A stretch of 64,000 bases of DNA from contig NZ_CP095046.1 of assembly GCF_022919215.1 (NCBI RefSeq), forward strand, positions 4,020,501 through 4,084,500, written 5' to 3'. Source of the DNA: Hymenobacter cellulosilyticus (GTDB lineage Bacteria > Bacteroidota > Bacteroidia > Cytophagales > Hymenobacteraceae). Below are positions 37,455-60,191 of this stretch, piece after piece (position 1 is the first letter of the stretch; every line of letters starts with the position of its first letter). The translations under genes were made by a program, and so were the position numbers. The notes beneath the pieces are model-generated. The model saw only the letters and a program-made list of their open reading frames with translations. It did no database searches and was not told the DNA's origin.

Positions 37455-38569
37455 CTACGGGGCAAACGTGCCCAGGTCCCGGCCCTGAATGGCGGCGGCC
37501 ATCAGGGCCGGAAACCGGTCGGGCGTGCAGGCAAAGGAAGGAACCCCGAGAGCAGCCAGTTGTTCGGCCATGCGCCGGTCGAAGCCCGGGGAGCCTTCGT
37601 CGCTGAGCGCCAATAAAGCCACCAGCGTGACTCCCGCAGCCTTGAGGGCGGCGGCCCGCTTGAGCATCTCGGCCTCGTTGCCGCCCTCGTACAAGTCGCT
37701 GATGAGCACCAGAATGGTATCGGCGGGACGGGTAATCAGCTGCTGGCAGTAGGTCAGGGCGCGGTTGATATCGGTGCCGCCGCCGAGCTGTACGCCAAAG
37801 AGCAAGTCCACTGGGTCATGCAAATCCTGGGTAAGGTCGGCCACGCTGGTATCGAAGACGACCATGTGAGTTTTCACCGCCTTGAGCGAGGCCAGCACCG
37901 CCCCAAACACGCCCGCGTACACCACCGAAGCGGCCATGGAGCCGCTCTGGTCCACGCAGAGCACGATTTCCTTCAGGGCCTGCCCCCGCCGGCCGTAGCC
38001 CACCAGCTTTTCGGGAATCACGGTTTTGTAGGCCGGCTGGTAGTGCTTGAGGTTGGCCCGGATGGTGGCCGCCCAGTTGATTTCCGCGTAGCGGGGGCGC
38101 GGGTTGCGCACGGCCCGGCTCAGGGCGCCCTGCACGGCCTGCCGCAGGGGGTTGGCCAGGCGCTGCTCCAAATCCTGCACTACGCGCTGCACTACTTCCC
38201 GAGCCGTGTGCTTTACCTTAGCCGGCATCACCCGCCCCAGCGACATGAGCAAGCCCACCAGGTGCACGTCGGGCTGCACGGTGCGCAATACCTCGGGCTC
38301 CAGCAGCATCTGTTGCAAACCCAGGCGTTCCATGGCGTCTTTCTGCATCACGGCTACTACCGACGAGGGAAAGTAGCTGCGGATGTCGCCCAGCCAGCGG
38401 CTGACTTTGGGGCCGAGCCGCCCAGGCCCGCCTTGCGCTCGGCTTGCTCATCGTCGTAGAGGGCGGTGAGGACCTGGTCCATGCGGCCGTAGTCGGGGGA
38501 AAGCGGGATGTCGTTGTCGGCGTCGGCGGAGGAGCCCAGCACGAGCTTCCAGCGGGCAGCGTTGCTCAT
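37455..38569 (-). CDS. VWA (MIDAS) protein of the SWIM-MoxR system
   Basis: Repaired length 371 residues; one C is missing near 38415, between SAP and KVSRWLGDIRSYF. The first ~195 residues are helical (KDAMERLGLQQMLLEPEVLR, HTAREVVQRVVQDLEQRLA). The von Willebrand A domain begins at ~203: MIDAS motif DQSGSMAAS, Thr in LGGGTDINRAL and Asp in VLISDLYEGGN. This class of VWA protein works with MoxR-type AAA+ ATPases, and its homologues sit beside SWIM, MoxR and DUF5682 genes (E. coli YehP is a relative as far as I can judge). Here those partners are on the same strand but 5-20 kb away. Divergent from the M1 peptidase by ~105 bases. Confidence 0.85.
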
Positions 38570-38673
38570 AGAGGAACCGGGAAAATGCCGCCGGGCCGAG
38601 CAAACCGGATGCGGCGGCTTTGGCGGGTTTGCGGTACTTTCGGCTTTTGCCCCGACTGTACCCTGAATTGAGC

Positions 38674-41287
38674 ATGAAATATAGCAACAATGCGCCCCGG
38701 GTCGGCTTTTTGCTGTTGGCCGCGCTGCTGAGCTGCGCCAAAACCCCTACGGCCTCCATTCCTGCGGCCCGCCAACGCCGGTAGCCGTGGTGCCGGGCGT
38801 GAGTCTGGAGCTGGCGCAGGATCGGGCCCGACGCATTTCGCGCCTGGTCTACGACATCTTTCTGGATATACCGTGGGAAAAAGCCGAGCCCATCAGGGCC
38901 GCCGAAACCATCCGCTTCCACCTCGCCGATGCCAGCCAGCCCGTGCAACTCGACTTCAAGGAGCAGGCCGACCACCTTAAAAGCCTGACGGTGAATGACA
39001 AAGCGGCGGCAATTGACTTTCGGGCGGAACACCTGGTACTGCCGGCAGCCAGCCTGAAAGCGGGTCTGAATGAAGTTCGAATTGACTTCATTGCCGGCAA
39101 CCAGAGCCTGAACCGCAACGACGAGTTTCTCTACACCCTGCTCGTGCCCGACCGGGCCCGCACGGTGTTTCCGGTGTTCGACCAGCCCGATCTGAAGGTT
39201 ACGTTCAAGCTCACCCTGAATGTGCCAACTGGTTGGCAAGCTTTAGCCAACGCCCCACTGGATTCCACCCGACGCACCCTCGACGGGCGGGTACCGGGCT
39301 GGAATACGCACTTCTTCGCCCCTTCCGACACGATTAGCACCTACTTGTTCTCAATTGCGGCGGGCAAGTTCACTCCGGTGACAAAAACCCTAAACGGCCG
39401 GCCGATGGAGCTTCTGCACCGCGAAACCGACCAAGCCAAGCTGCGCCTGAGCCTGAACCCGATTTTCCGGATTCACGCCGACGCGCTGACGTTTCTGGAG
39501 GCTTACACCGGCTTGCCCTACCCCTTCCGCAAGTTCGACTTTGTGGCCCTGCCCGACTTCCAGTACGGGGGCATGGAGCACGTGGGCGCCATTGATTACA
39601 AAGCCAGCACCCTGTTTCTGAACGAAGGTGCCACCCAGGACCAGCTGCTGGCCCGCTCCAACCTCATTGCCCACGAAACGGCCCACATGTGGTTCGGGGA
39701 TTTGGTGACCATGCAGTGGTTTAACGACGTGTGGATGAAGGAGGTGTTTGCTAACTTCATGGCCGACAAAATCACCCAGGTGGCCGTGCCGGGCTCCAAT
39801 TACGACCTCAAATTCGTGGTGGACCACTACCCGGCTGCCTACGGCGTGGACCGCACTGCCGGGGCCAACCCCATCCGGCAGGACCTGACCAACCTGAAAG
39901 ATGCCGGCTCGCTCTACGGCAACATTATCTACCACAAGGCACCCATTATGATGCGGCAGCTGGAGCGCCTCATGGGCGAAACCGCCTTCCGGGACGGGCT
40001 GCGCGAGTACCTGAAAACCTACGCCTTCGGCAACGCCACCTGGCCTGATTTGATCCGCATCCTGGACGCCCGCACCCCGGCCGATTTGCAGGCCTGGAAC
40101 CAGGTGTGGGTCAATCAGCCCGGCCGGCCCGTGTTCGACTACCAGCTCATAACCAAAGACGGCCTAGACGCCGACGTGGTAATCACCCAGCAGGCCGAGG
40201 ACGGCTCGGACCGGCTGTGGCCCCAACTCTTCGAGGTGCTGTTCGTGTATCCCGATGGCCGTACCAAGGAGGTGACGGTTAACATGAACCAGCGCCAGGT
40301 GGTGGTGCCCCAGCCGGCAGGCAAAGTGGCCCCGGCCTTTATCCTGTTCAACTCGACGGGCCTGGGCTACGGGGTTTTCCCCATCGGCAAGCAGCTGACA
40401 ACCGGCCTAAGCCAGCTACCGAGCCCCGTAGCCCGGGCGGCGGCCTACGTGAACCTCTACGAAAACATGCTCAACGGCCGCAGCATCGCGCCCCGGCAGC
40501 TACTGGAGGTGTACCGCCAAACGTTGCCCAAAGAAAAGGAAGAGCTCAACCTCAAGTTGCTCACCGGTCAGCTGACGGATATTTACTGGAAGCTGCTCAA
40601 GCCCGCCGACCGCCGGGTCCTGGCGCCGGTTCTGGAAAAAGAACTGTGGCAGGCCCTGCAGCACAACCCGGCGGCTAACGCCAAGAAGCTGCTTTTCAAA
40701 ACGTATCAGTCGGTAGCCCTTACCCAGGAGGCCCAAAGCCGCCTCTACCAGATCTGGCAGGCGCAGCAAGCCCCAGCCGGCGTGAAGCTCACCGAGGACG
40801 ACTACACTAGCCTGGCCCTGGCCCTGGCCGTGCGCGACTATCCGGCCCCAGTCCCATTTTACCCCAGCAATTGGCCCGCATCAGCAACCCGGACCGGCGG
40901 CAGCGCCTGGAGTTTATGCGGCCGGCCCTGGCTTCGGACAAAGCCACGCGGGACGCCTTTTTTGCCGGCCTGCGCAAGGAGAAAAACCGCGAAAAGGAAG
41001 CCTGGGTGGTTTCGGCCTTGGCCTATCTGCACCACCCGCTGCGGGTGGCGGAGTCAGAGCAATACCTGCCCGAGAGCCTGGCCTTGCTGGAAGAAATTCA
41101 GCAGACCGGCGACATTTTCTTTCCCTACTCCTGGCTGCAGGCCACGCTCAGCAGCTACCAGGCGCCCACGGCGGCCCGCACCGTGCGCGCGTTTCTGGCC
41201 GCCCACCCCGGCTACAATCCCAAGCTGCAAGCCAAGATTCAGCAGGCGGCCGACGACTTGTTCCGGGCCGAGAAGCTGACTCTGTAA
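38674..41287 (+). CDS. M1 family zinc aminopeptidase, lipoprotein
   Basis: Repaired length 871 residues. ATG 38674 gives a lipoprotein signal (MKYSNNAPRVGFLLLAALLS then Cys). M1 marks: exopeptidase motif YGGMEHVGAIDYK (GxMEN variant with His for Asn), then zinc site LIAHETAHMWFGDLVTMQWF with the third ligand Glu in DVWMKEVFANF. The C-terminal ERAP1-like helical domain is complete after repair (FMRPALASDKATRDAFFAGL). Two breaks: a C run near 38773 and a T run near 40858. Aminopeptidase activity on peptides in the periplasm or on the cell surface is expected. Confidence 0.92.
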
Positions 41288-41321
41288 TGCGCGGTGCACA
41301 GGCGACGGGCTCATGGACTAG

Positions 41322-41858
41322 CTACCGACCGTAAGGACTATCCGTCTTAAATTGCCGCTCAAACTCCTGCCGGGAGCAAATGCTTTTAACGTCGGTGAGG
41401 CGGTCCAGGGCCAGGATGCCGTCGAGGTGGTCGATTTCGTGTTGCAGCAGCTCGGCCAAATCGTCTTCCGCCCCGGCGTGGGTTTCGTGCCAGCTGCCCT
41501 GCAAATCCTGGTAGCGCACCCGAATCCAGGGGTAGCGGGTGACGCGCATAAAGATGGACAGAAACGAGAGGCAGGCGTCCCAGACTTCCATTGTCTCGGA
41601 GCTGTGGTCGATGATACTGGGGTTGATGAGCGGCCACACTGGCCGGCCCGGCAGGCGCAGCAGAATCACGCGCTGCAGCACCCCGATCTGCGGGGCGGCA
41701 ATGGCGCGGCCGTAGCCGGTAGTTTCGCGCCAGTGGGCCACCGTGTCGCTCAGGTCAGTGACGAGGGCGGCTACGGCGGGGTCAGTAGGGTCGGCTACGG
41801 GCTGGGCTGCTTGGCGCAGCACCGGGTGGCCGAGCTGCAGAATCTCACGAACGGGCAT
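41322..41858 (-). CDS. def: Peptide-deformylase-family protein, divergent
   Basis: 178 residues, close to the usual length. Motif 1 GYGRAIAAPQIG fits GxGxAAPQ with a two-residue change. Motif 3 LLQHEIDHLDGI (QHExDH) is intact. Motif 2, normally EGCLS, reads WDACLSF: Cys and Leu-Ser are kept but Glu-Gly becomes Asp-Ala. It keeps all metal ligands (Cys, His, His) and the catalytic Glu, so it may still be active, but it looks like a secondary, specialised deformylase rather than the housekeeping enzyme. The amidohydrolase gene ends 11 bases upstream, so the two are probably co-transcribed. No methionyl-tRNA formyltransferase gene is nearby. Confidence 0.82.
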   Translation of the reverse strand: MPVREILQLGHPVLRQAAQPVADPTDPAVAALVTDLSDTVAHWRETTGYGRAIAAPQIGVLQRVILLRLPGRPVWPLINPSIIDHSSETMEVWDACLSFLSIFMRVTRYPWIRVRYQDLQGSWHETHAGAEDDLAELLQHEIDHLDGILALDRLTDVKSICSRQEFERQFKTDSPYGR

Positions 41859-41869
41859 GGCAGGTGGTT

Positions 41870-43306
41870 TTAACGGTTCTTAACGGCTTGCACCAGGCGG
41901 CGCAGTTCCGGGGCTGGGTACAGCTTGCCGCGGGAAACGACGGCGTGAATCTGGTGCAGATGCCGAATATTTTCCAGCGGATTTCGGTCGAGCAGTACCA
42001 CATCCGCCTCCTTACCCACGGCAATGGTGCCGGAGCGTTGGTCGGCTTTCAGAAACCGGGCCCCGTTGATGGTCGCCGCTTGCAGGGCCTGGGTTGGCGT
42101 CAGGCCGGCTGCTACGAGCAGCTCCAGCTCCCCCAGCAGCGACACGCCCGGATAGACGTAAGAGTTGGAAGCCCCGCTGTCGGAGCCGGCCAGCAAGGTT
42201 ACGCCGGCAGTCTGCAGCTGCGGAATAAAGCTGGTAAACCGAACACCGAGCTGCTGGTTGAAGGCCCGGGTAGCGGGGCTTTGGGCCCGGGCGCTGGCCA
42301 GGCGGCGGCTATAGGTGCGCTCGATGCCGGGGGCAATGTAGGCCAGCATCGTGTCCCGGGCATGGTCGGTGGTGGGCAGCTCGGTGAGCAGCTTCTGGAT
42401 GTAGAGCGTGGGCACCACGGCCGTGCGGTGCTGTTTGAGCATCCGAAAAGTTTGGGCGGCCACGGCCGGGTCGTAGGTGCGGTACACGGCGGGCAGCACG
42501 GCAAATAGGCCCAGGGGCTTACTGGTGCGCAGGCTGGCCTGCACGGCGGCCGTGAGGCTGTCTTCCCGGTTGGAGCAGGCTTTCAGCAAATAGTACAGGT
42601 GCTCGGTGGCGTCGAGGCCCTGCTCGGCGGCTTCGCGCAGGGTTACGGTGTAGGGCATGTGGCCCGTGGTGGTCATTCCGCGCTTTTCGGCGGCGGCAAT
42701 AGCGCCCAGGAAAGCCTCCCGCGAAATGGTGCTTTCGTAGAGCTTGACGTAGTCGACGCGCAGCTTTTGCAAGGAGTCCAGGGCGCGGTTTATCTGCTGG
42801 GGCGTTTCAATTTCCAGGGAGCCGGCCCAGAACGCCTTGGGCCCGTCGAGCTTGGGGCCGGAAGTGAAGATGCGGGGGCCGGCCAGCTGCCCGGCGGCCA
42901 TTTGCTCGCGCCAGCGGAAAATGTGCGGGGCCAGGTCGCCGCCCGCGTCGCGCACGGTGGTGATGCCGTGGGCCAGGTAGAGTGGGAGCAGGTTGCGGTT
43001 GGCCGTGGCCAGGGAGTCGCCGCCGCGAAAGTGCACGTGCATGTCCCACAGGCCCGGAATCAGGTAGCGGCCCCGGGCGTCCACGGTTTGGGCCGCCGCC
43101 AGGGCCGAGCCGGACTTTCTCAGGTAGGCAATACGCCCCTCCCGGATGCCCACCGTCTGGTCGGCTCGCACCCGGCCCGTTTCCACGTCCACCACGTTGG
43201 CGTGGGCAATGACCAGGTCGTAGCGCTGGGCAGCCGGGCCGGCGCAGCCGCCGATTACAACGGCTGCCAGCAAGGCGTTGGTCAGCCGGGAAAGTCTACT
43301 TTTCAT
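41870..43306 (-). CDS. Amidohydrolase-family lipoprotein (imidazolonepropionase/prolidase-like)
   Basis: 478 residues, uninterrupted. Lipobox VIGGC after a short hydrophobic signal. The metal-dependent hydrolase fold is seen from the first beta-sandwich (YDLVIAHANVVDVETGRV) through YLIPGLWDMHVHFRG (HxH metal pair), Lys in VDYVKLYEST, His in TTTGHMPYTV and LDATEHLYY, and Asp in LLAGSDSGASNSYV. The C-terminal strand GKEADVVLLDRNPLENI is typical. These enzymes hydrolyse amide bonds in small molecules or dipeptides. Export by lipoprotein signal suggests periplasmic peptide or amide turnover. Operonic with the deformylase-like gene. Confidence 0.9.
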   Translation of the reverse strand: MKSRLSRLTNALLAAVVIGGCAGPAAQRYDLVIAHANVVDVETGRVRADQTVGIREGRIAYLRKSGSALAAAQTVDARGRYLIPGLWDMHVHFRGGDSLATANRNLLPLYLAHGITTVRDAGGDLAPHIFRWREQMAAGQLAGPRIFTSGPKLDGPKAFWAGSLEIETPQQINRALDSLQKLRVDYVKLYESTISREAFLGAIAAAEKRGMTTTGHMPYTVTLREAAEQGLDATEHLYYLLKACSNREDSLTAAVQASLRTSKPLGLFAVLPAVYRTYDPAVAAQTFRMLKQHRTAVVPTLYIQKLLTELPTTDHARDTMLAYIAPGIERTYSRRLASARAQSPATRAFNQQLGVRFTSFIPQLQTAGVTLLAGSDSGASNSYVYPGVSLLGELELLVAAGLTPTQALQAATINGARFLKADQRSGTIAVGKEADVVLLDRNPLENIRHLHQIHAVVSRGKLYPAPELRRLVQAVKNR

Positions 43307-43402: not shown

Positions 43403-45681
43403 TCAGCCGACCATACCCAGCAGCTCCCGCAACCCGGCCAGGCTGTGCAGTCCCCGCTCCAGGTCAATGTCGGCTACTGTTTCCGTTGGGCGAGCTGCCG
43501 TGCCCCCGGCCAACGCCAGCACCTGCTGCCGCTCGGGCTGGGTGAAATCGGCAAAGGAGCGGCGCAGCAGCGGCACTACTTCCTGAAACACGGTTTCGTC
43601 GAGGCCCGAGAGCCAGTCGTCGAGCAGGTCGAACAGGGGGCGGTGGTGAATCAGCAGCAAGCCACTACCCGCAAAAAACCCTCAATCCAGGCCGTGGCGT
43701 ACTCCGTGGCCTGGGTCGGCGCTAAGGCCAGGCCCAGCAGCGTGGCGGCGTCTTCTGGCCCGAGCTGCTGCCCGTCGAAGAGCAGGCGGGTGGCAGCCCC
43801 GGCCAGCAGGCCGTTGCTGGCGGGTTGCCGCCCAATGGTGTGCAGCGTGGCGTACCAGTCGGCCTGGGCGGCGGGGTCGGGTAGCAGCCGAACGGCCTGG
43901 TGGGCCGCCTCCACTTGCTCCAGTAGGCCGGCGGCAGCATCCGCGTCGAGGCCGGTGGTGGCCCGGGGCAGGGAAATGCAGAGGCGGGGCACTAGGTGCT
44001 GCACAACCTGGGCCACTTGGGCGGTTTCGGTGCGCCGCACGTTGCCGTAGCGCAGCACGCCCACCAGCGGCGGCAGGGCCACAAGTAGATGCACCACGTC
44101 GCGGGTGTCGGCGCTGAGCGTTTCGAGGCGGGCCACTAAGGTCGGCAGGGCCGGACCAATATCGGCGCGCAGGGCCGCTTCCAGCAGCTCGCTGATCTGG
44201 CCCAGGTGGCTGGCCTGGGCCGCTCGGTGCCGGGCCGCGCCGCTGGCCGCTTCCAGCACGGTGTTGCCCCAGCGGCCGGCTTCAAGCAGCTGCAGCACCA
44301 TTTCGGGCTTCCATTGCACTTCCCACACTTCGTGAAACGTGCCGCTTTTGCCGCTCACCTGCTGGGGCCGGCCCCAGCGGATGCCCAGCAGCTCGAGGCG
44401 GTGCAGCAGATGGCTCCGGCCCAAATCCAGGTCTTTGCGCAGGTCCAGGGCCAGGGGTTTGCGGGCCGCTTCGGGCTTGAGGCGCCAGGTTTTCTGCTGC
44501 TGGGCTAAATCCTGTTGCAAAGGCGAAGCGGGCAGTTCCTCGGGCACCTCTCCCAGCTTTTCGCCGATTACCAGCTGCTCGTGCACCAGATTCAGGGCCT
44601 CGGCGTAGCCGCCCCCGAAGATGCTTACGGCCGCCTCTTCCAGCTCCTCAATGCCGGGCAGCGCCAGGCCGCGCACGGCGGCCAGGGCTTCGGCCAACCG
44701 CACGCCCTCAATGGCGTGGGCCGAGGAAGCATCGATTTGCTGGCTGCGCAGCACGTGGGCCGCCCGCACCATCCAGTGCGTTACCACCTGCTCGTGGGGC
44801 TGGGCAAAGAGCAGCTCGTACCAGGCCGGTGAGAGTACTCCCGCCCCGTAGCCCGACTGCCGGGCCAGCCGCTCGTAGGTCCAGGGTACCCAGGTGGCCT
44901 GGGTAGCCACTTTTTTCAGGCCTTTGAGACGGGCTTTATCGGCTTTGGCGTAAGCGGGCAGGTTGTCGGCGCGGAGTACCGGGGCGTGCCAGGCCCCGCA
45001 CACCACGGCCACGCGCTGGTAGCCCTGCTTGAGCGTGGCGCGCAGGGTTTCGCGCATGTAGGCCTCGCGCAGCAGGGTTTCTTCCGACTCGGGCTGGGCC
45101 AGCTCCTCGCGCAGGGCCGTCATCATTTCCAGCACCACCTCGAAGGCGTCGGCGTGGCCGGCGCTGTGCTCAATGCGGGCCTCCCACCACCGTTCGCCGT
45201 CGAGGTAGCCGTCGAGGCGGGCCAGATGGGCAATGGGGTCCAGGCGCAAGGGAGTGTCTTCCAGGGGCAGGCCAGTGCCAGGAGTTTCCTGCGAACCGGC
45301 CGCCTCCGCTCCGGCCGACTCACTTTCGGCAGTAAGCTCCTGCTCCATGGCCTCGGGCAGGGCAAAGCGCAGGCTCATAGGCAAATCGAAGCAGCGCAGG
45401 TGAGCCGCGTGCTCCCGGCACCAGCGGGCGGCCTGCCACTCGGGCGAAAACGCGGCGAAGGGCAGGAACGAGGCCTGCTGGTGCTGCTTGGGGTTGTAGA
45501 CGAGCAAAGCTACCGGGGGCAGCAACGCGGGCGTCGCGGCCAGGGCCAGCACCTTTTCGGCGTCGGCAGGGCACTCCAGCAGCACAATGTCGGGCCGGTA
45601 CTCGTCCAGGGCTTTGAGCAGGCTGGCGGCACTGCCCGGACCGTGGTGGCGAATACCGAAAAGGTGGAGGTCAGTAGGCAT
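43403..45681 (-). CDS. DUF5682 (YehM-like) protein of the SWIM-MoxR system
   Basis: Repaired length 759 residues from ATG 45681 (MPTDLHLFGIRHHGPGSAAS). A TTG five codons upstream is rejected because the ATG leaves a normal 7-base gap after the preceding stop. The N-terminal block GIRHHGPGS...LLECPADAEK is diagnostic of DUF5682. Later parts contain VAVVCGAWHAPVL (~220) and long helical stretches. One G/C missing near 43669 moves the last ~80 residues into another frame (HHRPLFDLLDDWLSGLDE). No signal peptide. DUF5682 proteins occur beside SWIM, MoxR and VWA genes in many bacteria; their activity is not known. Directly preceded by a propeller-like gene in the same operon. Confidence 0.85.
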
Positions 45682-45688
45682 ACTTTTG

Positions 45689-46783
45689 TTACTCAATCAT
45701 TCGTAGCGAACTGCCGTCAAACACGCCAATTCCGTTGTTCTGAGAAAGAAAAACCAGGTTATTATCCTCGGTAAAAGCCATTTTCAACACGTTCATCGGA
45801 GAGCCCACCGCATCGCGCTGGCCATTTTTCCAGTCGAGCTTAGGCCGTACCATATTCTCCCACTTAGCCAGCGTCGACAAATCGGCCCTGGTGTCGCCGC
45901 GAAAGATGCCATTCTGCGAGTAAAAGTACACCGACTGTGAGGAGGCATTGAACGCCCCGGGCCCGATATACTCGCCGGGTTTGACAAAGAATTTTCCGTC
46001 AGCAGAGTCCCGCGCTGATTCACTGTTCAAAAGAGGACGCGCCTTTAGGTCGGAAAAGGCTATGACGCAGCCATGAGTCAGAAAATGGTGCAGGCCGCAG
46101 GTTAGGTAAACCGTTGATTGACCCTCGAAAAATGACTTAACCGGGTTCAGTTCGATTCGGAATTCGCCCAGGTCAGGGGTAAGAAAAACCTTCTGTTGCG
46201 TATCGAAGATAAAAAGGTTGCCACCCCATTCGCCATACCCAAAGCCGACCCAGATCCGGTCGGCGCTATCGATGAAGTGGGCGGAGGGCGTACCCCACGA
46301 GGCCTTCAGCTGAACCTGTTTATTAGGCGACTTCTCCGGGAAATAGAGCTTGCCGGTGGCGGCTGCGGCAATACCCCTGGGTGTAATGGTAAACAGATTG
46401 CCGTGGCTGTCACTGAGAATGGCGAGGGCCGCGTGGGCGGCAGCCGGCTTGATTTCCTGTTCGCGGCTTCCGGCTTCTTCCCCGTTGGGCAGCACCGTCA
46501 CCTTGGTGCCCCGCAGGATAATGACGTTGTTGCGGGAATCCTTGCAAAAGGCATCGGCCATCAAGGTCCGCTTGCTTTCCGCCTGCTTGGCCTGCCCAGG
46601 GATAAGGATGCGAATGGCCCCAGAATTGGTTAGGGCCCAGACCTGCTTGCCTACCGTGATGAAATCCCGGTAGCCCGTAGCGGCAGGGCCAGTGTAAGCA
46701 GCAGGCAAACCCGCGGACGCCTGGTAGACCAGCGCCAAGCTCAGGCACACGGTAAGAAATCGAACCAAATAGTTGAGGTTCAT
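45689..46783 (-). CDS. Secreted beta-propeller-like protein, paralogue 2
   Basis: 364 residues from MNLNYLVRFLTVCLSLALVY (signal peptide ends near ASA). Repeated short strand blocks with W and GN/DG turns (DFITVGKQVWALTNSGAIRI, LAILSDSHGNLFTITPRGIA, DRIWVGFGYGEWGGNLFIFD, MAFTEDNNLVFLSQNNGIGV) suggest a propeller of six or seven blades, as in two-component-regulator propellers. It is a clear paralogue of the protein at 55122-56164: both have W[IV]GFxxGEWGGNLxxFDT, YYS/YSQ-GIFR and a C-terminal IGxxDGxxLR. Stop TAA is 7 bases before the DUF5682 start, so the two are translated from one message. An exported protein next to cytosolic DUF5682 is unexpected; role unknown. Confidence 0.75.
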   Translation of the reverse strand: MNLNYLVRFLTVCLSLALVYQASAGLPAAYTGPAATGYRDFITVGKQVWALTNSGAIRILIPGQAKQAESKRTLMADAFCKDSRNNVIILRGTKVTVLPNGEEAGSREQEIKPAAAHAALAILSDSHGNLFTITPRGIAAAATGKLYFPEKSPNKQVQLKASWGTPSAHFIDSADRIWVGFGYGEWGGNLFIFDTQQKVFLTPDLGEFRIELNPVKSFFEGQSTVYLTCGLHHFLTHGCVIAFSDLKARPLLNSESARDSADGKFFVKPGEYIGPGAFNASSQSVYFYSQNGIFRGDTRADLSTLAKWENMVRPKLDWKNGQRDAVGSPMNVLKMAFTEDNNLVFLSQNNGIGVFDGSSLRMIE

Positions 46784-49708: not shown

Positions 49709-49722
49709 AACCGCTACTTGCC

Positions 49723-50540: not shown

Positions 50541-51150
50541 TGTGTACCGCCTGTTTAGTGCCTGCTCGTTTGGTCCCTGTCTCCCGGACTGAAGTCGGAT
50601 TTTATACTAATCCTTGTTAGTTAAAATATTGACGGTTTGATTATTATAATCATCTGTTTGTTTGTTGTTATGTAGCCGGCGGTTTTCTGCGCCAATTTTG
50701 GGCTATTGCAAATGCTCCGCTAGTTTGTCTACTGCCAGCAGCTACCTGCTTCTGGCCACAACAGCAGCGGAACCGCCTGATTAGCCGGGCTGACCCCGGC
50801 GCCAAGTTACCTGGCAACTCTGCCCGCTCTGCGTTCTTGTCCTGGCCCTACCCCGCCCGCCAGGCTGCTCACTATTCTTCTTAGCCCCAGCCCCTGCTGT
50901 TACTAGCGGGCCGACTGGCCGCATCCCAGCCGAAGTTTTCTGCCTTAATCTGGGGCAGTTCTCAAGCCTGCCAATAGCTTCTGCTCAGGCAGCTCCCGTG
51001 CAAGCCAGCAGGAGACTTCTTGGCTATACACATAGATTGATATATATACTTTAATACTATACCGCGCTCATTCCCTGCCACCCCTGGCCCTGTGCCATTA
51101 TTCCATTCGCTTACCTGTTTCACCTTCTCCATTCACCCTTTTCCGTCTGT
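50541..51150. other. AT-rich leader region before the T9SS cargo gene
   Basis: 610 bases with no gene. AT-rich patches lie at ~50600-50680 (TTGTTTGTTTGTTG) and ~51035-51060 (GATATATATACTTTAATAC); the second probably contains the promoter of the gene at 51151, but no exact TTG-N19-TAnnTTTG was found. No terminator hairpin is evident after the AraC-like gene. Confidence 0.45.
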
Positions 51151-54100
51151 ATGAGCACAAAAATCTACGCCTCCGTCTCGTGGTTACCTGACAAGGTTCG
51201 GGCCCGGCTGGCTGCCCTGGCTACGGCCCTGCTGCTGGCCCCGGCGGCCTGGGCCCAGGCGCCGGCCAACGACAACTGCGCGGGAGCCATTGCCCTACCC
51301 ATCACGGCCACCTGCACGCCCACCACGACGACCAACCTGGGAGCCACGGCCAGCACGGGCGTTCCGGCTTCCTCGTGCGGCGGCACCGTTACCAACGACG
51401 TGTGGTACAGCATTGTGGTGCCGGCCAGCGGCGGGGTCATCGTGACAACCAGCCAAGTAAACGGCAGCCCCTTTGTCGATTCCATTCTCGAACTGTACTC
51501 GGGTAGCTGCGGCAGCCTCACCGCCCTGGCCTGCAGCGATGACGCCGGCCCCGACGGCTTCTCCAGTTCAACGGTTGCTAACCTGGCCGTGGGCAGCACC
51601 ATTTATGCGCGGGTATACAGCTTTGCCGGTAGCCCGACGGGCAGTTTTGGCATCTGCGCCGTGGCGCGGGCAGCGGTTCCGGTCAACGACAATTGCAGCG
51701 GCGCTCTGGCCCTTACTCCCAGTGCCACCTGCACACCTACTACGGTCAGCAACGTGGGCGCTACGGCCAGCACCGGAGCGCCCCTGAACTGCGCCAATAC
51801 GGCCCTCAGCGACGTGTGGTACAGCATCGTAGTACCCGCCGGCGGCGGCCTGACCGTGACGACCAGTCAGGTTGGCGGCAGCCCATTCACCGACTCCATC
51901 ATTGAGCTCTACACCGGAACCTGCGGCGGCCTCACGCCCGTGGCCTGCAATGACGACGCGGTAGGCGGCCCCGACCGGTTTTCCAGCGTTACGGCCCGGG
52001 GCCTGACGGTGGGCAGCACCGTGTATGCGCGGGTGTTTGGCTACACCAGCACACCCACGGGGCAGTTCGGCATCTGCGTGACGCTACCCACGCCGCCGCC
52101 GGCCAACGACGACCCCACCGGCGCCATTGCGCTGCCCCTGACGGCCACCTGCACCCCCACGACCGGCACCAACGCCAACACCGCCACTACCCGGCCCAAC
52201 GGCTATACCAACGGCGCGAATCCGAATACGGCCTGCGGCATTGCCACGGCGCCGCGGGACGTGTGGTACACGTTTACGACGGCCGCCAGCGGCACGGGCA
52301 GCACGGCCGCTACCATCCGGGTTACGGGCAACGCCGCCGGCTACATCCGCGTGTTTTCCAGCGCCGCCGGGGCCGCCGGCCCGTTTACGGAAGTAAGCTG
52401 CGCCTCGGGCGGGGCCAGCAATACGGCTTCGGTTCCATTAAACCTGACTGGCCTGACGCCCGGCACCACATATTACGTGTCGGTAGCTGGCTACGACTCC
52501 AGCGACGAGGTCGGCCCCTTCACGATTTGCGTAACCAGCACCCCGGTCATCGTGTGCATTCCCCCAACGGCCGTATCAGTGGGCAATATCACGGCTACCT
52601 CGGCCAGCTTGCGCTTTGCCCCCGGGGCCGGCAACACGAGCTACCAGGTTACTTACTACCCGGCCATGAACAGCAGCTCGACCACAACCGTAACGGCCAC
52701 TACCGCCCCGGTGCCGCTGATCAACCTGCTGCCCAACACCGAGTACCTGGTGACCTTACAGCCCCTGTGCTCGGCCGGTGGTACCACTCCGGTTATCAGC
52801 CAAACCTTTATCACCCCGCCCACCAACGACGAATGCGCAACTGCCGTAACCCTGACGCCCGGCGCGCCCGGCGCAGCGTGCTTGCCCACCGATGGCAAGA
52901 TTCTGGGGCTACCCAAAGCCTGGCGCCGGCCACCTGCAACGGCACGCTCACGGTTACCGCGCCCGACGTATGGTACAGCTTCACCGCTACGGGCACCTCG
53001 CACGTAATCACAGTCACTGGTGATTTCGACGGCGTGCTCGAAGTACTGAGCGGCGCTTGCGGCTCGCTTACCAGCGTAGCCTGTTCGGATGCGTCGGCCG
53101 ACAACACCGAAAGCCTGACGCTGTACTCCCTCACCCCGGCACAACCTACAAAGTGCGCTACTACCCCTACTATGCCCTGGATGTAGTGGATGGCAACCTC
53201 AGCATCTGCGTAACCACCCTGCCCCCACCGATGCCGCGGTGCAGGCGCTCTACTCACTAGGCACTATTGCTTCTTCCTATGGTTCGCCCGTGCCAGTGCA
53301 GGCCGTCGTGCGTAATACCGGCTCAGCAGCCCTTACCAACGTGCCAGTGACGCTGGCCGTGAGCGGGGCTACTACTTTCACCGACACCAAGTCCATTGCG
53401 AACCTGGCCGTGGGTTCTTCCGCCACCGTGACCTTCACGGCCTACCCGGTGACGGCTACGTCGGGCACCAACCAGCTCACCGTGACGGTGCCTGCCGATG
53501 GACTGGCAAGCAACAACTCCCGGACCGTGACGCAAGTCGTTTCGGCCTCTACGCTGAGCTACAACGTGGGCAACAGCTTTGTTGACGGAGCCGGCGTACG
53601 AGCTGCCAACACGACCATTGCCGTGCGCCACGAAACCAGTAAGCCAGCTACCATACGCAGTGTCACCACCAATTTCTACGGCGCCAGCAGCAGCGGTGCC
53701 AGCTACCAATTGCTGCTTTTCGCGGCCGACGCACCGGGCGGTATGCCCGGCACGGTCATCTACGCCACGCCAGCCCTGCCCCGCCCGGCTAACGGGGGCG
53801 CCGATGTCGTTCCTATTCCGGAAATACCCGTGGAAGGCACTTTCTTCGTGGGCCTGAGCAATACAACCGCCAACAGCCTCGCAATTAGCTACCAGCTGGA
53901 AACGCCCCTGCGCAGCGGCACTTTTCTGTACCGCCTGGCCGGCGCCGGCAGCTGGACTGATATCAACACCACGGGCTCCAGCACGCGCCTGTCGGTTGAC
54001 GTCACGCTGGGAGCAGTTTTGGGCCGCAAGGATGCCATTGGGGCCGGTACGCTGAGCGTGTACCCCAACCCCGCGCACCGCAGCTTTACCCTGGCCCTGC

Positions 54101-54297
54101 CCGCCATTGCCGGGCAGCGCACGGCCGAGCTTACGCTGCTCAACACCCTGGGCCAGCAGGTGCTTGCCCGCACGGTGCCCCTTGTGGCCTCGGGCACCGA
54201 AACTCAGGTGGACGTAAGCAGCTTAGCCCCCGGCCTGTACACGCTGCAAATCAAAACCAACCGGGAGGTGGCAACCAAGAAAGTACTGGTGGAGTAG
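51151..54297 (+). CDS. Large T9SS-exported surface protein with repeated domains
   Basis: Repaired length ~1,049 residues. N-terminal signal peptide (ALATALLLAPAAWAQ). Four homologous beta-rich units start with NDNC/NDDP/NDEC and contain DVWYS/DVWYT: ~37-175, ~176-315, ~318-465 and ~550-690. A fibronectin-III-like domain (PPTAVSVGNITATSASLRF) lies between units 3 and 4. A CARDB-like domain (PVPVQAVVRNTGSAALTNVP) follows, then a T9SS type A C-terminal domain (LSVYPNPAHRSFTLALP, SSLAPGLYTLQIKTN). Three single-base breaks: ~52907 (G run), ~53140 (C run) and ~53228 (C run). It would be secreted through the outer membrane and attached or released by the T9SS. Repeats suggest an adhesive or binding role. 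Confidence 0.88.
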
Positions 54298-54318
54298 CCC
54301 CTGCTCCGCCCCAACAGC

Positions 54319-54354
54319 AAAAAGCCCGGCTTCCTTGGAGGCCGGGCTTTTTTT
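54319..54354. terminator. Rho-independent terminator
   Basis: AAAAAGCCCGGC (54319-54330) and GCCGGGCTTTTTTT (54341-54354), 20 bases after the T9SS cargo stop. The A run on the other arm also serves the minus-strand SMI1-like gene. Confidence 0.92.
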
Positions 54355-54510
54355 ATAGTATTCAGGTTTCAACTCACCAAACAGCTGACCGAACCCCGCC
54401 AGGGTTTGGCAGGTCCGCTTGCCACATGGAACCGGCAGCAGCGGGCATCATCCGCCCTGGCAGGATACCACCCAACCAGCGCTGGCCGTCCGCTAAAGCA
54501 GGCGAAGTGG

Positions 54511-55088
54511 CTAGCTGCCGGCCGCAAATTCCTGTGGAAAGCCGGCCGGATATTTCAATTCCGTAGCCACCAGGTCCTCATCCGTCAGCTCCGTCCCGTT
54601 TTCGCCCGCTTCCTCGTAGGTCTGCACCACGGCCTGCAGCCAACTCGTCAGGTTGGGAAACAACACATTGCGGGGCTCCCAGTCGTGCCAATGCTCGAGC
54701 AACTGCCCCGCGCGGCCGGTAAAGGAGCCCTGCAGATCCACGCAGACATGGTCGCCCCCGCCGTTTTCCAGAATCGGCACCCAGCCGGGCTGCCACCAGT
54801 TGGCCAGCTCAAATTCCCCGGCTTCCAGCAATTGCCGGTTGATGCGCATGGTTTCGGCCGCGCTGCCCAACGACTGCAGGCAGTTGTTTTCCACGAAGCT
54901 TTCGAAACCTTGCTGCCCGTTGTGCCAGCCAAGCCAGAGCCGCAGCTCCTCGGGCAGCGTCAGCTTAAATTCAGCCTCAAAAGCTGCTAGTTCCGCCGCC
55001 GTAGCGGGTGGGTTCAGGGTGGCGTAATACGCGGGCGGCGCTGCTGGAGCAGGGTATCGAGGCGGGCAAGTAGCGCGGGAAAGGGCAT
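54511..55088 (-). CDS. SMI1/KNR4 (SUKH-like) protein
   Basis: Repaired length 192 residues from MPFPALLARLDTLLQQRR. One C is missing near 55035, which shifts everything after RRP. Family marks: TAAELAAFEAEFKLTLPEEL followed by RLWLGWHNGQQG (the SMI1/KNR4 N-terminal block), then LANWWQPGWVPILENGGGDH and VDLQGSFTGRAGQLLEHWHD. SUKH proteins often give immunity to polymorphic toxins or act as adaptors. No toxin gene is visible. It lies 33 bases after the propeller-like gene on the same strand, at the end of the SWIM-MoxR operon. Confidence 0.8.
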
Positions 55089-55121
55089 ACAGAAATTCTG
55101 TGGCCCTGTGGGCCGTTATGA

Positions 55122-56164
55122 TTAGGGTATAAGGCGAAGAACTTGTCCGTCCCAGATGCCAATGGCGCTGCTTTGGACAAGAAGCACCAATTTATTGTCG
55201 GCAGTAAACCCCATTTCACTCCCGGTGCTGGGAAAAGCATGGTTCGAAAATACATCCGGAGCGCACACCAGCTGCCACGTCTCGGCCTTGGCAAGCTCAG
55301 TAGCAGATTTGGCTCGGAATATTCCCTGGTCGGAATAATAGTACAAGCACTGCTCGGCAAGGCTGTAGGCTATTGCCCGGATGTCTTCGCCCCGGGGAGT
55401 ACCACCGTAGCTTATAATCCGGTAGTTTTCTTTGTAATTGCTGTGAAATACGTGCTTGGCCTGCAGGTTTTCGAAACGAGTGATGCAGCTACTACCTGCT
55501 ACTCCCCCGGCCACGTATAGCTGAGCCCCTACCAAGCAAAAGGAGTTGGCTAAGGGTAAGCAGGCTAGCGTGTCGCGAAAAGCAACGGCAACAAACGTCT
55601 GTTGCTTAGTATCGAACACGTGAAGATTACCACCCCACTCGCCCCTGTCGAAGCCTATCCACAGCTTATCTGCCGCATCGAGCAGCGCGACAGAAGGCTG
55701 ATGGTCCCATTTGTAATAAGGATTCAGACTAGCTACCGGGTCAAAGCGCTGCTTAGTAGTCACGTTGAGTAATCCGGTTTCAGTAGCGGCCCAGAGTCGG
55801 TGCTGGCCATCAAGGGCCAGAAAAGCTGTTTTAGCCGGCAATTTTCCTAGCAAGGCAGCCCGGTTACTGCGGCTGCTGAGCCAATACACCACCTGCCCGC
55901 AAACGGCTACAAAACCTTGCTGACCAGCCCGGTGAATACTGGTCACGGGCTCCTTTAGGCCGATGCTCACCGGTCGCTTCTCACCCTGGGAAGTAAACGA
56001 ACTGAGGACGCCATTTACGCCCAGGGCCCATATAGTGCTGTCCAGTACCACCAAGTCTTTGTAGCCACCATCAGTCGGCGGGGGCGCCGCGCCGGGTTTT
56101 TGCGCGACTGCCCCAGCACGCTTACGTTTAGCAGCAGCAACCCAAATAGTAAGTAATATCTCAT
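55122..56164 (-). CDS. Secreted beta-propeller-like protein, paralogue 1
   Basis: Repaired length 347 residues from MRYYLLFGLLLLNVSVLGQS (signal peptide). One A is missing from the run near 56099, restoring KKPGAAPPPTDGGYKDLVVL. Repeated strand blocks (DSTIWALGVNGVLSS, DGQHRLWAATETGLLNVTTK, DKLWIGFDRGEWGGNLHVFD, MGFTADNKLVLLVQSSAIGI) indicate a propeller. Paralogous over its whole length to 45689-46783. The start is 10 bases after the MoxR stop, so it belongs to the SWIM-DUF5691-MoxR operon. Function unknown; its export signal is odd for a partner of a cytosolic AAA+ ATPase. Confidence 0.75.
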
Positions 56165-56174
56165 TGACTACTGT

Positions 56175-57272
56175 CTACTCCACCACTTCCCGGCAGGCGC
56201 GGTACAAATCCTTCCACCCGTCGCGCTCCTTGACCACGGTCTCCAGGTATTCGAGCCACACCACGCGGTCCTGCACGGGGTCCTTAACCACGGCGCCGGT
56301 GAGGCCGGCGGCCAGGTCGGCGGCTTGTAGGCTGCCGTCGCCGAAGTAGGCGGCCAGGGCCAGGCCACTGTTGAGCACTGAAATGGCCTCGCCGGTGCTG
56401 AGCGTGCCGCTGGGGCTTTTAAGCTTGGTTTTGCCATTCTGGGTTACACCCGAGCGCAGCTCCCGGAAGATGGTCACCAGGCGGCTGATCTGCTCCAGGC
56501 CGGCCGTGGTGGGCGGCAGCTGCAGGGCCCGGCCGGTTTTCTCCACCCGGCTCTGCACTATTTGCACTTCCTCCTCCACCGAGGTCGGCAGCGGCAACAC
56601 GACGGTGTTAAAGCGGCGGCGCAGGGCACTGCTGAGCTCATTGACGCCCTTGTCCCGGTCGTTGGCGGTGGCAATGACGTTGAAGCCCCGCGTGGCCTGC
56701 ACCTCCGTGGCCAGCTCGGGCACCGGCAGCACTTTCTCCGACAGCACCGTGATGAGCGTATCCTGCACGTCGGCCGGAATGCGGGTCAGCTCCTCAATGC
56801 GCACCAGACTTCCCTCCTGCATGCCCTTGAGCAAGGGCGAAGGTACCAGGGCTGCCACCGAAGGACCTTCGGCAATAAGGCGGGCGTAGTTCCAGGAGTA
56901 GCGAATGGCGTCTTCCGACGTGCCGGCCGTGCCCTGAATCAGCAGGTTGGAATGGCCGCTGATGGCCGCCGTCAGGTGCTCACTCACCCAGCTTTTGGCC
57001 GTGCCAGGCACGCCCAGCAAGAGCAGGGCGCGGTCGGTGGCCAGGGTCGCTACGGCAATTTCCATTAGCCGCCGCTGCCCGATGTACTTGGGCTCAATCT
57101 CGAAGCCGTTGTCTAGGGTGCCGCCCAGCAGGTAGGTCACCACGGCCCAGGGCGAGAGTTTCCAGTTGGGTGGCTTGGGCCGGTCGTCGGCGGCCACCAG
57201 GGCAGCCAGTTCTTCGGCGTATTGCACCTCGGCATGGGGGCGCAGAATATCAGGAGCGGGGGTAGCAGACAT
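56175..57272 (-). CDS. MoxR-family AAA+ ATPase
   Basis: 365 residues, intact. Walker A GVPGTAKS (87-94), Walker B SLVRIEELTR (Glu160-Glu161), sensor 1 VIATANDRD (Asn204) and arginine finger ALRRRF (218-220). The lid is in the C-terminal ~120 residues. MoxR ATPases remodel or insert cofactors into partner proteins together with VWA proteins. This one falls in the subgroup next to SWIM and DUF5691 genes (E. coli YehL is probably related). It is cytosolic, 40 bases after DUF5691 and 10 bases before the propeller gene, so part of one operon. Confidence 0.92.
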   Translation of the reverse strand: MSATPAPDILRPHAEVQYAEELAALVAADDRPKPPNWKLSPWAVVTYLLGGTLDNGFEIEPKYIGQRRLMEIAVATLATDRALLLLGVPGTAKSWVSEHLTAAISGHSNLLIQGTAGTSEDAIRYSWNYARLIAEGPSVAALVPSPLLKGMQEGSLVRIEELTRIPADVQDTLITVLSEKVLPVPELATEVQATRGFNVIATANDRDKGVNELSSALRRRFNTVVLPLPTSVEEEVQIVQSRVEKTGRALQLPPTTAGLEQISRLVTIFRELRSGVTQNGKTKLKSPSGTLSTGEAISVLNSGLALAAYFGDGSLQAADLAAGLTGAVVKDPVQDRVVWLEYLETVVKERDGWKDLYRACREVVE

Positions 57273-57312: not shown

Positions 57313-58857
57313 TTACGGCTCGTCGGAGCCGGGCGGCTCGTCCAGCGACAAAGTCAGCTGCCGGCGAAAGTCCAGCGCTGCCAGGGTATCCTGAATACCA
57401 GCGTTGAGCGGGCCGTACACTTCCGTAAGCGGGGTGAGCCGCGCGGCGCAGCAGTCGAAGTCGGCCTCGTCGGCGTAGGCCTGCAGGTTGTACAGCATCT
57501 GCTGCAGCTGGGGCCAAGGTGGTTGCCCCGGCAGGCCGGGAGTAGTATGCGCAGCCCCTACCAGCTCCAACACGGCCTCGGTGAGCTCCCGCGGCCAATA
57601 CTTCCAGGCGGCCAGCTGCAGGGTTTGCAGGGCGGCCGGCGTAATGGCGCGGCGCGGCGGCAGCAGTTCGCGCAAAAAGTCGTTTTTCTGGGCTAGTGGC
57701 AGCACGCTCAGCAGTTCTTTGGCCTGCTTGGGCGTCAGAAATGCCTGCCCGGCGTGCTCCGTCAGCAGAGCCTGAGCCCAGGCCACGTCCCGATGCAGGT
57801 GTGCCGCCTGCGTCCAGGCCGTGCGCAGCAGCTTAGCCCATTCGCTGTCGGCAGCCCGGCGCAGCAGCTCGGCCGGGGTTTGCTGCCAGTGCGCCGACCA
57901 GCGGCCGGGCGGCAGCAAAGCCAGCATCTGCCCCAGCCACCCCGACCGTTCACCGCCCTCGAAGCGCTTGTCCTTAGCCTCGATACCAGCCAGTTGCCAG
58001 TCTTTGTGCCAGGCCTCGGGCTCGGGCAGGTGCACCTGCAGCCCACCGGTGGCGGTGGGAGCCAGCGTGAGCAGCGGGGCGGCCAGGTCCCAGAGGCGGG
58101 AAAGCAAGGGTGAGTCGGGCATCCGAGCCAGCAGGGCCGCGACGGTCTGCCGCACTTCTTTACTGCCCGAGCGAAGGTAGGGCTCCAGCAGCGGCACATC
58201 GGCCGCCGACACCGTCCAGCGCAGCTCGTGCAGCAGGGCTGCCTGCTCGGCAGCCGCTTCGGTAGGTAGGGCCGCGGCCAGAAGCTGGCGCAGCTGCTCG
58301 GGCTGGGTGCGGTGCAGCCAGCGCACCAGGTGCTGCCGTCGGTGCCGGTTGGCCGTTTCCCAATCGGCCGGGTCCGGATCAGCAAATTCGGGAGCCAGAA
58401 TACCCTGCCAGGCCGGGTTGAGGGCGGCCAGCCACTGTCCCCGGGCTCCGGCCGCCGCCCCAGCCCCCTTCAGGTCGATGCGCAGCATGTCGTGCTCAAA
58501 CACGGCTGGCAGCAAGTAATGCGGAATGCGCCGCTGCCGGGCCACCACCTGCGGCAAGTAGCGGCCGGCAAAAAAGCTGAAGCGCCGGTTGTCCAGCATC
58601 TGCTGCAGACAGTGCGCCCCGGCCGGTCCCAGCGGCGGCCACGCTTCGGGGCCGGCCGGGGCCGGCGGCGTGGCCGCCAGCGGCACCACACCCGCCTTGC
58701 GTACGAGGGACAACGCGCCGGCGGTCAACAACACCTGGGCCTCGCGCGAGGCCGCTGCCGGAAGCTCACCGGGTGGTGTGGGCACTGCTTCCCCGCTTTG
58801 CCGGGTGCCCAGCAGGGCCACGCGCAGCAGTTGTTGCCAGTCGGAGGAAATATTCAT
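57313..58857 (-). CDS. DUF5691 protein of the SWIM-MoxR system
   Basis: 514 residues from MNISSDWQQLLRVALLGTRQ; the ATGA at 58854-58857 overlaps the SWIM stop by 4 bases, which fixes the start and shows coupling. It is almost entirely helical, with repeat-like helices (LLEPYLRSGSKEVRQTVAAL, LSVLPLAQKNDFLRELLPPR) resembling HEAT-type scaffolds. The N-terminal WQQLLRVALLGT is the usual beginning of DUF5691. Tryptophan- and leucine-rich, no catalytic motif. Probably a scaffold or client adaptor for the MoxR ATPase (inference). Confidence 0.85.
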   Translation of the reverse strand: MNISSDWQQLLRVALLGTRQSGEAVPTPPGELPAAASREAQVLLTAGALSLVRKAGVVPLAATPPAPAGPEAWPPLGPAGAHCLQQMLDNRRFSFFAGRYLPQVVARQRRIPHYLLPAVFEHDMLRIDLKGAGAAAGARGQWLAALNPAWQGILAPEFADPDPADWETANRHRRQHLVRWLHRTQPEQLRQLLAAALPTEAAAEQAALLHELRWTVSAADVPLLEPYLRSGSKEVRQTVAALLARMPDSPLLSRLWDLAAPLLTLAPTATGGLQVHLPEPEAWHKDWQLAGIEAKDKRFEGGERSGWLGQMLALLPPGRWSAHWQQTPAELLRRAADSEWAKLLRTAWTQAAHLHRDVAWAQALLTEHAGQAFLTPKQAKELLSVLPLAQKNDFLRELLPPRRAITPAALQTLQLAAWKYWPRELTEAVLELVGAAHTTPGLPGQPPWPQLQQMLYNLQAYADEADFDCCAARLTPLTEVYGPLNAGIQDTLAALDFRRQLTLSLDEPPGSDEP

Positions 58858-60191
58858 AGGTTGGCTGATACGGGCGCCGCAGCGCTGGTAAAACTGATGG
58901 GCAGCAAGGCCTGGCCGGTCCATTCGCCAAATACGGTAATGGGATACCCGCCGCTGGCGGCCAACAGGCCCCAACCCAGCTCACTGTCGGGGTGCAAAGG
59001 CAGGGCTTGCCCGCTGGCCGGGTGCAGCAGTTGCAGGCCACCGTCGGGCAGTAGCACGGGCACCACGCCAGCCACCGTAGCGGGCCATTCGCGCAGCCAG
59101 GGCTGCTGTCCCAGTGCGTGGGCGTAGGCGTCGAGCAGCTCGGCGGGCGCCAGGCCAGCCGGCAACACGTCGGTGCGCAGGCCCTGGTATTCCCAGTCGG
59201 CCGCGGGAGCCGCGCGCAGCGGCAGCGTGCCGGGATAAAAGGCCAGCCCGCCGCGGTACGTACCAAAAGCCAGCAGCGGAGTAGCAAAGGCCTGCCCGCC
59301 GAAGGAAAACTCCAGCACGAGGGCATAGCGGCCGGTGCTGATGCCCCACAGCCAAGCGCGGCGCACCAGCAAACGCTCTTCCTCGGTCGTCACCAGGCCC
59401 ACCACGAGCCAGGTATCGGTCACGGCGGGCTGGCGGCCGAGTACGTCTTCCTTTTTTACATTTACCCCAACGAGCTGCAGCACGTCGGCGCGGCGCCCAG
59501 CTGGCAGTTGGTCAAGTCGGCCAAAGGACTGGGTCAGCAGGTACAGCTCCCCAAGGCGCCCGAGCATACGCTCGGGCCACTGCAGCCCTCCCGAGTAGCG
59601 CAGGCTAGCAAGTTCCCGTACGATGGCTGCCAGGCCGGGCAGCTGCGCATCAACGAGGCGGGCGGCCTGCTGCTCCCAGAAGGTGGCTGGGGCGCGGTCG
59701 AGCTGGGCCAGGCCCTGGCTGACTATATCCGTCAGCCACCGGTCCAGCTCCTGCACCCCATGCTGCATCCGCTCCATCCGCTGACTTTCCCGTTTCTGCC
59801 GGGCGGCGTTGTCGGTTTCGGCGGCCGGTGGGGCCACGCTTTGGGCTGTGGCCGGGGTTTGCCGAGTTTGCCGCTTGCTCAGCCATTCGGTTAGCCACTC
59901 GGGCTCGGATAGGTCCCCAAACCGCTGGGGCTCCCGGGCCGCGAGCAGCAGCAAACCCGCGCCGTGCTTGCAGGGAAACACCCGACTCGGGCACGAGCAT
60001 TTGAAAGCTGGTTCCGTTAAATTAACGGCCGTCTGATAAGGCCGGGCGCCGCTGCCGGCGCACTCCCCCCATACGGCCGTGGGCGTTTGTCCCAAATTAT
60101 GCCACGGGGCTGGGCGGGCCAGCTCCAGCCCCCGTTTCAGAGTACCCGCATCCGGTACCAAGGCCCGCACCTGCTCTTCCGTCCAAACCAC
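58854..60191 (-). CDS. SWIM zinc-finger protein heading the MoxR operon
   Basis: 445 residues from GTG 60191 (MVWTEEQVRALVPDAGTLKR); no ATG exists upstream in frame. The SWIM motif FKCSCPSRVFPCKHGAGL (~62-79) has CxC...CxH in full. SWIM domains bind DNA or protein. The rest is mixed alpha/beta, with several Trp-rich strands (DTWLVVGLVTTEEERLLV, RRAWLWGISTGRYALVLEF). Members of this family (E. coli YehQ-like) are always near MoxR/VWA genes. The candidate -7 box TAGCTTTG at 60218-60225 would give a leader of ~20 bases. Confidence 0.88.
   Translation of the reverse strand: MVWTEEQVRALVPDAGTLKRGLELARPAPWHNLGQTPTAVWGECAGSGARPYQTAVNLTEPAFKCSCPSRVFPCKHGAGLLLLAAREPQRFGDLSEPEWLTEWLSKRQTRQTPATAQSVAPPAAETDNAARQKRESQRMERMQHGVQELDRWLTDIVSQGLAQLDRAPATFWEQQAARLVDAQLPGLAAIVRELASLRYSGGLQWPERMLGRLGELYLLTQSFGRLDQLPAGRRADVLQLVGVNVKKEDVLGRQPAVTDTWLVVGLVTTEEERLLVRRAWLWGISTGRYALVLEFSFGGQAFATPLLAFGTYRGGLAFYPGTLPLRAAPAADWEYQGLRTDVLPAGLAPAELLDAYAHALGQQPWLREWPATVAGVVPVLLPDGGLQLLHPASGQALPLHPDSELGWGLLAASGGYPITVFGEWTGQALLPISFTSAAAPVSANL

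Follow-up and report, generated by a model that had tools for sequence, protein, structure and literature searches.

Results

The window analysed here, a stretch of 64,000 nucleotides (62% GC) from Hymenobacter cellulosilyticus (contig NZ_CP095046.1; genome of 6.09 Mb on three contigs), contains the five genes of a MoxR-type ATPase system and, between two of them, a slot whose genes differ among related strains. All five genes are encoded on the minus strand, and their order is SWIM zinc-finger protein (58854..60191), DUF5691 protein (57313..58857), MoxR AAA+ ATPase of the YehL type (56175..57272), DUF5682 protein (43403..45681) and CoxE-like VWA protein (37455..38569). A previous sequence-only reading of this DNA had proposed these members in this arrangement, and profile matches together with motifs bear it out. 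DUF5691 is recognized by PF18944 with 306 bits and MoxR by AAA_5 with 122 bits; the SWIM protein carries a CSC...CKH motif and reaches 17.7 bits with PF04434, below the cut-off. The P-loop of the window's MoxR reads GVPGTAKS, and either this form or GLPGTAKS is present in all 42 family MoxR proteins examined (of 44 genomes), just as the metal ion-dependent adhesion site (MIDAS) sequence DQSGS of the VWA protein recurs in 33 of the 33 family proteins examined. In DUF5682 the N-terminal part is alpha/beta and the C-terminal half helical and HEAT-like; the protein shows the motifs GIRHHGPGS, ExP and GAWH. Among 105 distinct DUF5682 sequences, collected with a filter that itself demanded the ExP and GxxH parts, GIRHHG is found near the N-terminus in 104 and GIRHLG in one, and GPG follows in 100.

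The accessory-gene slot extends over 10,493 bp from the MoxR stop to the DUF5682 start (45682..56174). Exactly as described in the sequence-only reading, a propeller gene (propeller 1, 55122..56164, minus strand) begins 10 nt past MoxR and is followed by a SUKH (SMI1/KNR4) gene (54511..55088, minus strand), while a second propeller gene (propeller 2, 45689..46783, minus strand) ends 7 nt ahead of DUF5682. Both propellers possess a signal peptide; propeller 1 is of the type present in G004 and G120 (53-54% identity), propeller 2 of that in G025 (66% identity). A relative of the SUKH gene in locus L045 matches PF09346 with 72 bits. The slot of the window also holds an insert on the opposite strand (48062..54297, plus strand) that comprises genes for a histidine kinase with TPR repeats and a response regulator, a small open reading frame (ORF) and genes for two secreted-type proteins, among whose features are fn3 and, in one of them, a sorting tail of the type IX secretion system (T9SS). 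This insert is not found in the slots of the sister strains G078 and G126.

Two samples were drawn for comparison, 150 genomes of the family and 395 genomes of the phylum. Genes were called with a custom script, which overlooked low-bias genes such as the propellers until the sequences were read by eye; slots were curated by hand, start codons included. DUF5682 is encoded in 44 of the 150 family genomes and in eight of the 395 genomes of the phylum draw. DUF5691 occurs in the same 44 genomes; beyond these, G143 has a partial copy and G096 a weak match. Order and strand of the SWIM, DUF5691, MoxR and DUF5682 genes are kept in 44/44 family loci, and VWA lies within the fetched stretch in 36 of them. 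The SWIM-DUF5691 and DUF5691-MoxR gaps always stay below 0.7 kb. The joint between MoxR and DUF5682, on the other hand, is open in 40 of the 44 genomes, namely the window and 39 relatives with 594 to 17,099 bp (median 1,828); it is closed (less than about 290 bp by our own calls) in G003, G125, G048 and G042, all of which belong to other genera.

The closest named matches to the DUF5682 protein of a sister strain come from Hymenobacter. Eighty of 579 confirmed named loci were analysed, and 61 of these 80 are not from Hymenobacter. A complete five-gene operon is present in 21 of the 61, from Cyanobacteria, Acidobacteria, Planctomycetes, Chloroflexi, Abditibacteriaceae, Chitinophaga, Mucilaginibacter and others, and the distance between MoxR and DUF5682 falls below 150 nt in 17 of these 21. 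The other 40 loci are incomplete at the thresholds used, 29 of them with DUF5682 alone, and many lie on short contigs. Since other phyla have the operon in compact form, the slot is probably a derived state, opened by insertions in Hymenobacteraceae. The dispersal of the system noted in the sequence-only reading thus holds for the window but would not be its original form. Single ORFs stand at the joint in an Abditibacteriaceae locus (L146, 4508-5374, 280 aa) and an Anaerolineae locus (L178, 8813-9988, 382 aa, membrane-like); neither matches the cargo of Hymenobacter.

The cargo set comprises 99 same-strand proteins from 37 slots, with the window's own cargo excluded. In each of the 37 cargo-bearing slots the first cargo gene starts no more than 260 nt from the MoxR stop, and in 32 of them no more than 148 nt lie between the end of the last one and DUF5682. 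Seven of 40 slots gave calls for genes on the opposite strand, the kinase/T9SS block of the window among them. A tree of MoxR plus DUF5682 places strains with different cargo as sisters, for example G059/G138 (97.1% core identity) and G020/G040 (95.4%); in G124/G104 the cargo at position 1 has changed and the rest is kept. The borders of exchange are sharp. In all 15 sister pairs taken from the top of the tree-based list, DNA homology stops between -1 and +14 nt from the MoxR stop, and in 12 of them it resumes, after the last break, at the DUF5682 start (-23 to +1); one of these twelve, G078/G000, also has the SMI1 gene in common in between. In the remaining three pairs the point of return lies within the slot, where both strains have distal cargo in common. 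As homology breaks at the MoxR stop and returns at the DUF5682 start, cargo is probably exchanged by allele replacement via recombination in the conserved flanking genes.

Among the 99 cargo proteins Pfam identifies 23 of SUKH-1 (PF09346), six 2OG-Fe(II) oxygenases, six DUF6985, four FAD oxidoreductases, three AHJR-like restriction endonucleases, three RusA and two DUF6414 proteins; SduA, M78 plus Mrr_cat, HSDR_N_2, DUF1963, R2K ATP-grasp and DinB occur once each. Counting two calls below the Pfam cut-off, a nuclease-, HEPN- or DUF6414-type gene is present in nine of 39 slots (G040, G065, G074, G080, G082, G084, G112, G114, G126), in eight of them as the first gene after MoxR and in G112 as the second, behind a small ORF. 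Three SUKH-family genes each are found in the slots of G068, G124 and G149. A membrane-type protein (c33) is matched in 14 of the 150 genomes, in eight cases inside the slot.

Within the family draw the propellers and the close relatives of the SUKH gene are almost exclusive to the slot. Propellers occur in ten of the 150 genomes with 11 of 11 matches in the slot, that is in 10/44 core-bearing versus 0/106 core-less genomes (Fisher p 2e-6). Close relatives of the SMI1 gene (E<1e-70) are present in 12 genomes, eleven times in the slot and once in a decayed copy, corresponding to 11/44 versus 1/106 (Fisher p 5e-6); both values are optimistic because the genomes are not independent. Weaker SUKH matches also lie outside the slot. 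The recurrent linkage to MoxR and DUF5682 on which the sequence-only reading staked its case is therefore real, and all core-linked cases fall into one and the same joint. The genes are nevertheless not constant neighbors as that reading had supposed, but two of many exchangeable slot families. A restriction of propellers to the system everywhere was rejected: two genomes of the phylum draw besides that of the window contain a propeller in the absence of DUF5682, 161 relatives (120 of them listed) were found in a large protein set, and outside the family draw the propeller is independent of the core. The structural model of the protein is a beta-propeller with an N-terminal signal-type helix. 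The propellers begin with a signal-peptide- or lipobox-like stretch, and two relatives possess a lipobox-like cysteine. On account of the helix and this cysteine the propellers probably act outside the cytoplasm.

A chromosomal site of the system can be followed by means of the backbone genes c4 and c5, which are present in 28 and 22 of the fetched loci, respectively. Around c5 in 20 core-less genomes core genes were found in 0/20 and c4 and c5 together in 17/20; this stretch is the empty version of the site. The window copy sits elsewhere, with c5 at a distance of about 105 kb from the window. One cargo-type gene has been kept at the c4/c5 site in G094.

Discussion

The core of the system is not new. 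It corresponds to the known, little-studied YehL-type MoxR system encoded by yehLMPQ in E. coli K-12, where yehL (MoxR), yehM, yehP (VWA) and yehQ (SWIM) are contiguous and co-directional. In a comparison with YehL, the MoxR protein of the window is 42% identical over 361 alignment columns (E 6e-82), and YehL has been described as one of the MoxR subfamilies (PMC3893208). The intact copies of G078 were used for the partner proteins, with 27% identity of DUF5682 to YehM and 34% of VWA to YehP; the window's DUF5682 and CoxE-like VWA are linked to MoxR as YehM and YehP are in E. coli. YehM retains GIRHH and contains a GGWHAP variant. SWIM protein and YehQ share CxC...CxH, whereas BLASTP gave no significant alignment. 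The arrangements differ in that SWIM comes last in E. coli, where DUF5691 was not found (the genome served as control), and in that nothing separates yehL from yehM. A literature search returned no paper mentioning DUF5682 or DUF5691 and, for yehL, yehM, yehP and yehQ, no dedicated study among the matches listed, which consisted of lists of genomes, omics studies and strings that matched by chance. The YehL/DUF5682/SWIM system spans many phyla and yet has received little study. Of the undescribed system that the sequence-only reading had proposed, what is new is the element that is exchanged from stop to start codon.

The five core proteins may form a protein-remodelling machine as suggested by the analogy to RavA-ViaA and NorQ-NorD. 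MoxR would be the hexameric remodelling ATPase and VWA its adaptor, a natural reading in view of the P-loop, the DQSGS sequence and the relationship to midasin and NorQ, the solved relatives of MoxR by sequence. In Hymenobacteraceae the operon would have been opened at the MoxR/DUF5682 joint, giving rise to a co-directional slot for which the two propellers and the SUKH gene of the window would be exchangeable cargo. Most likely, the slot keeps conflict-type genes, i.e. SUKH or other immunity-like genes, nucleases and periplasmic sensor-like propellers, under the operon promoter, so that cargo would be expressed with the machine and at least in part act alone. We assign a probability of about one half to this reading of a co-directional conflict-gene slot within a YehL-type operon, and favor it over the two main alternatives. 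By its context, the repeated uptake of immunity-like and nuclease genes hints at a role of this ATPase in conflict or in stress defence, and the MoxR/DUF5682 opening may be a plug-in site for defence-type genes. Sister pairs with 95-97% core identity and different cargo offer concrete material for experiments.

According to the first alternative, slot genes are true clients or effectors: MoxR would activate or mature whichever cargo protein is present, with VWA, DUF5682 and SWIM-DUF5691 as its guides. The position of cargo inside the operon between two conserved subunits would fit, as would the absence of propellers from all core-less genomes of the family draw and the frequent difference between sisters in the MoxR-adjacent gene, the place of the eight nuclease-, HEPN- or DUF6414-like genes. 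Furthermore, a P-loop of the GXXXTAKS form has been reported for MoxR-vWA conflict systems with propellers or FtsH, which are proposed to act on variable effectors (Kaur et al. 2020, PMC7159879). We consider this possible but doubtful: compact operons elsewhere manage without cargo at the joint, the propellers carry signal-peptide- or lipobox-like starts whereas by eye none of the core proteins does, propellers exist without DUF5682 in other Bacteroidota, and cargo has survived the loss of the core in G139. This genome retains seven cargo genes (MDN-c41-u239-SMI1-c7-u263-c38; L104, 7.7-12.7 kb) together with a scrap of the 5' end of VWA at the c4/c5 site. Cargo can therefore outlive the core, and the notion that it always needs the core was discarded. 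A bolder version, in which an undescribed modular conflict system has the YehL-type MoxR/VWA/DUF5682/SWIM machine as its constant chassis and the plugged gene is a client switched on by the AAA+ machine, appears rather unlikely; strains would then change specificity by swapping a stop-to-start cassette with a propeller, a HEPN-like, Shedu-type or SUKH protein or an Mrr protease-nuclease.

Alternatively, gene order in Hymenobacter is fluid and unrelated genes have simply gathered at a tolerant joint by neutral loosening. Turnover outside the slot speaks for this. Among nearest neighbors the slot conserves on average 26% (median 0) of the shorter sequence (27 pairs), and the 2 kb downstream of VWA keep 25% (median 0; 20 pairs), the DUF5682-VWA gap 37% (median 12; 19 pairs) and the 2 kb upstream flank 36% (median 24; 20 pairs), as compared to 97-99.5% for MoxR, DUF5682 and VWA. 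The idea of a uniquely hypervariable slot was accordingly given up, as the flank control turns over equally. In addition, two sets of genes look like plain insertions, the window's kinase/T9SS block and the housekeeping-like ones in the slot of G149. Small recurring families that in the family draw seldom occur outside the slot, co-direction with short gaps and sharp stop-to-start borders, and the two tight gaps upstream of MoxR are hardly expected from drift, which we regard as improbable.

Several observations weigh against the conflict-gene slot that we prefer. Apart from the survival of cargo in G139 and the equally fast turnover downstream of VWA and between DUF5682 and VWA, the slots of G053 and G098 (2/39) contain no same-strand cargo at all. 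The HEPN-like and HSDR_N_2 calls (18.8 bits with a cut-off of 24.4 and 23.9 bits with a cut-off of 25) are those that remain below the Pfam threshold. Toxin partners of the SUKH genes were not seen, though no systematic search was made. PADLOC was rejected as proof of defence enrichment. The slot set matched 20 of its models, led by PDC-M40A (18/99) and the 2OG family (6/99) with one protein for every other model, and the flank control matched nine, none of them in more than 3/99 proteins; this control is a random choice of 99 out of 176 genes, limited to four per cluster, to 100-499 aa and to well-scored genes, and its lengths and selection differ from those of the slot set.

Three types of known systems resemble the locus in part. 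The MoxR-vWA-beta-propeller ternary conflict systems (PMC7159879) likewise combine MoxR, VWA, a GXXXTAKS P-loop, propellers and a variable component. In contrast to these, VWA of the system studied here has no C-terminal propeller: in the window's protein the VWA domain occupies residues 66-282 of 298 aa, the C-terminal part, and full-length VWA proteins of the family (n=33) comprise 367-385 aa. The propellers have genes of their own, present in a minority of genomes. The main text of that paper contains neither the word SWIM nor DUF5682, and the window's MoxR reaches 24.6 bits with the bpMoxR profile, under the cut-off of 27. SUKH arrays whose contents vary from strain to strain have been described as polyimmunity loci of polymorphic toxin systems (Zhang et al. 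2012, PMC3482391), and some, though not all, slots are similar in presenting SUKH genes and other small families in tandem on one strand and variably among sisters; the slots differ by their place inside a MoxR operon, the admixture of nucleases and propellers and the lack of an identified toxin. Finally, the propellers have the fold of the periplasmic sensor propellers of hybrid two-component systems (e.g. BT4663) but stand alone with about 350 aa and no kinase parts.

In the window a single frame change each affects DUF5682 (near the 3' end), VWA (near the 5' end), the SUKH gene and propeller 1 (near the 5' end). As a consequence, DUF5682 and VWA are each spread over two frames, as one would expect of a decaying pseudogene system in this strain. 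However, DUF5682 is one open frame in the 43 other genomes, and comparison with G078 shows splits also in an unrelated M1 peptidase gene and a small ORF; the changes in all these genes fall within 43.4-56.2 kb and 36.5-41.3 kb. Because unrelated genes are affected and the assembly is the least complete of those listed (95.5% versus 99-100% for relatives), the frame changes are probably assembly indels, and decay is very improbable.

Between DUF5682 and VWA (38787..43306, mixed strands) lie genes for an amidohydrolase (minus), a peptide deformylase (minus) and the M1 peptidase (plus), a set also present in G078; no sign that they belong to the system was found. The gap genes c5, present in 63 of the 150 family genomes, and c18 were rejected as members, as both also occur at the site in core-less genomes. 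A TraB-like hydrolase nature of DUF5682, which would rest on a likeness to TraB/Tiki/EreA-like proteins, was not adopted: it was confirmed neither by a profile match nor by a whole-model fold search, which was dominated by the helical half.

In 14 of the 44 core-bearing genomes SWIM and DUF5691 form a single fused ORF of 994-1058 aa (L066, L067, L069, L071, L073, L074, L076, L077, L078, L081, L083 and the joined loci of G149, G036 and G116). At the thresholds used, DUF5682 occurs without recognized MoxR, SWIM or DUF5691 genes within 10 kb in L133, L137, L142, L158, L164 and L169, which stem from Saprospiraceae, other Bacteroidota and one cyanobacterium and possibly represent a solitary form or a dispersed system. 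A gene for an ankyrin-repeat protein (36884-37375, minus strand; cluster c32) adjoins VWA in the window and in the sisters G078 and G126; in G048 the two are a few genes apart.

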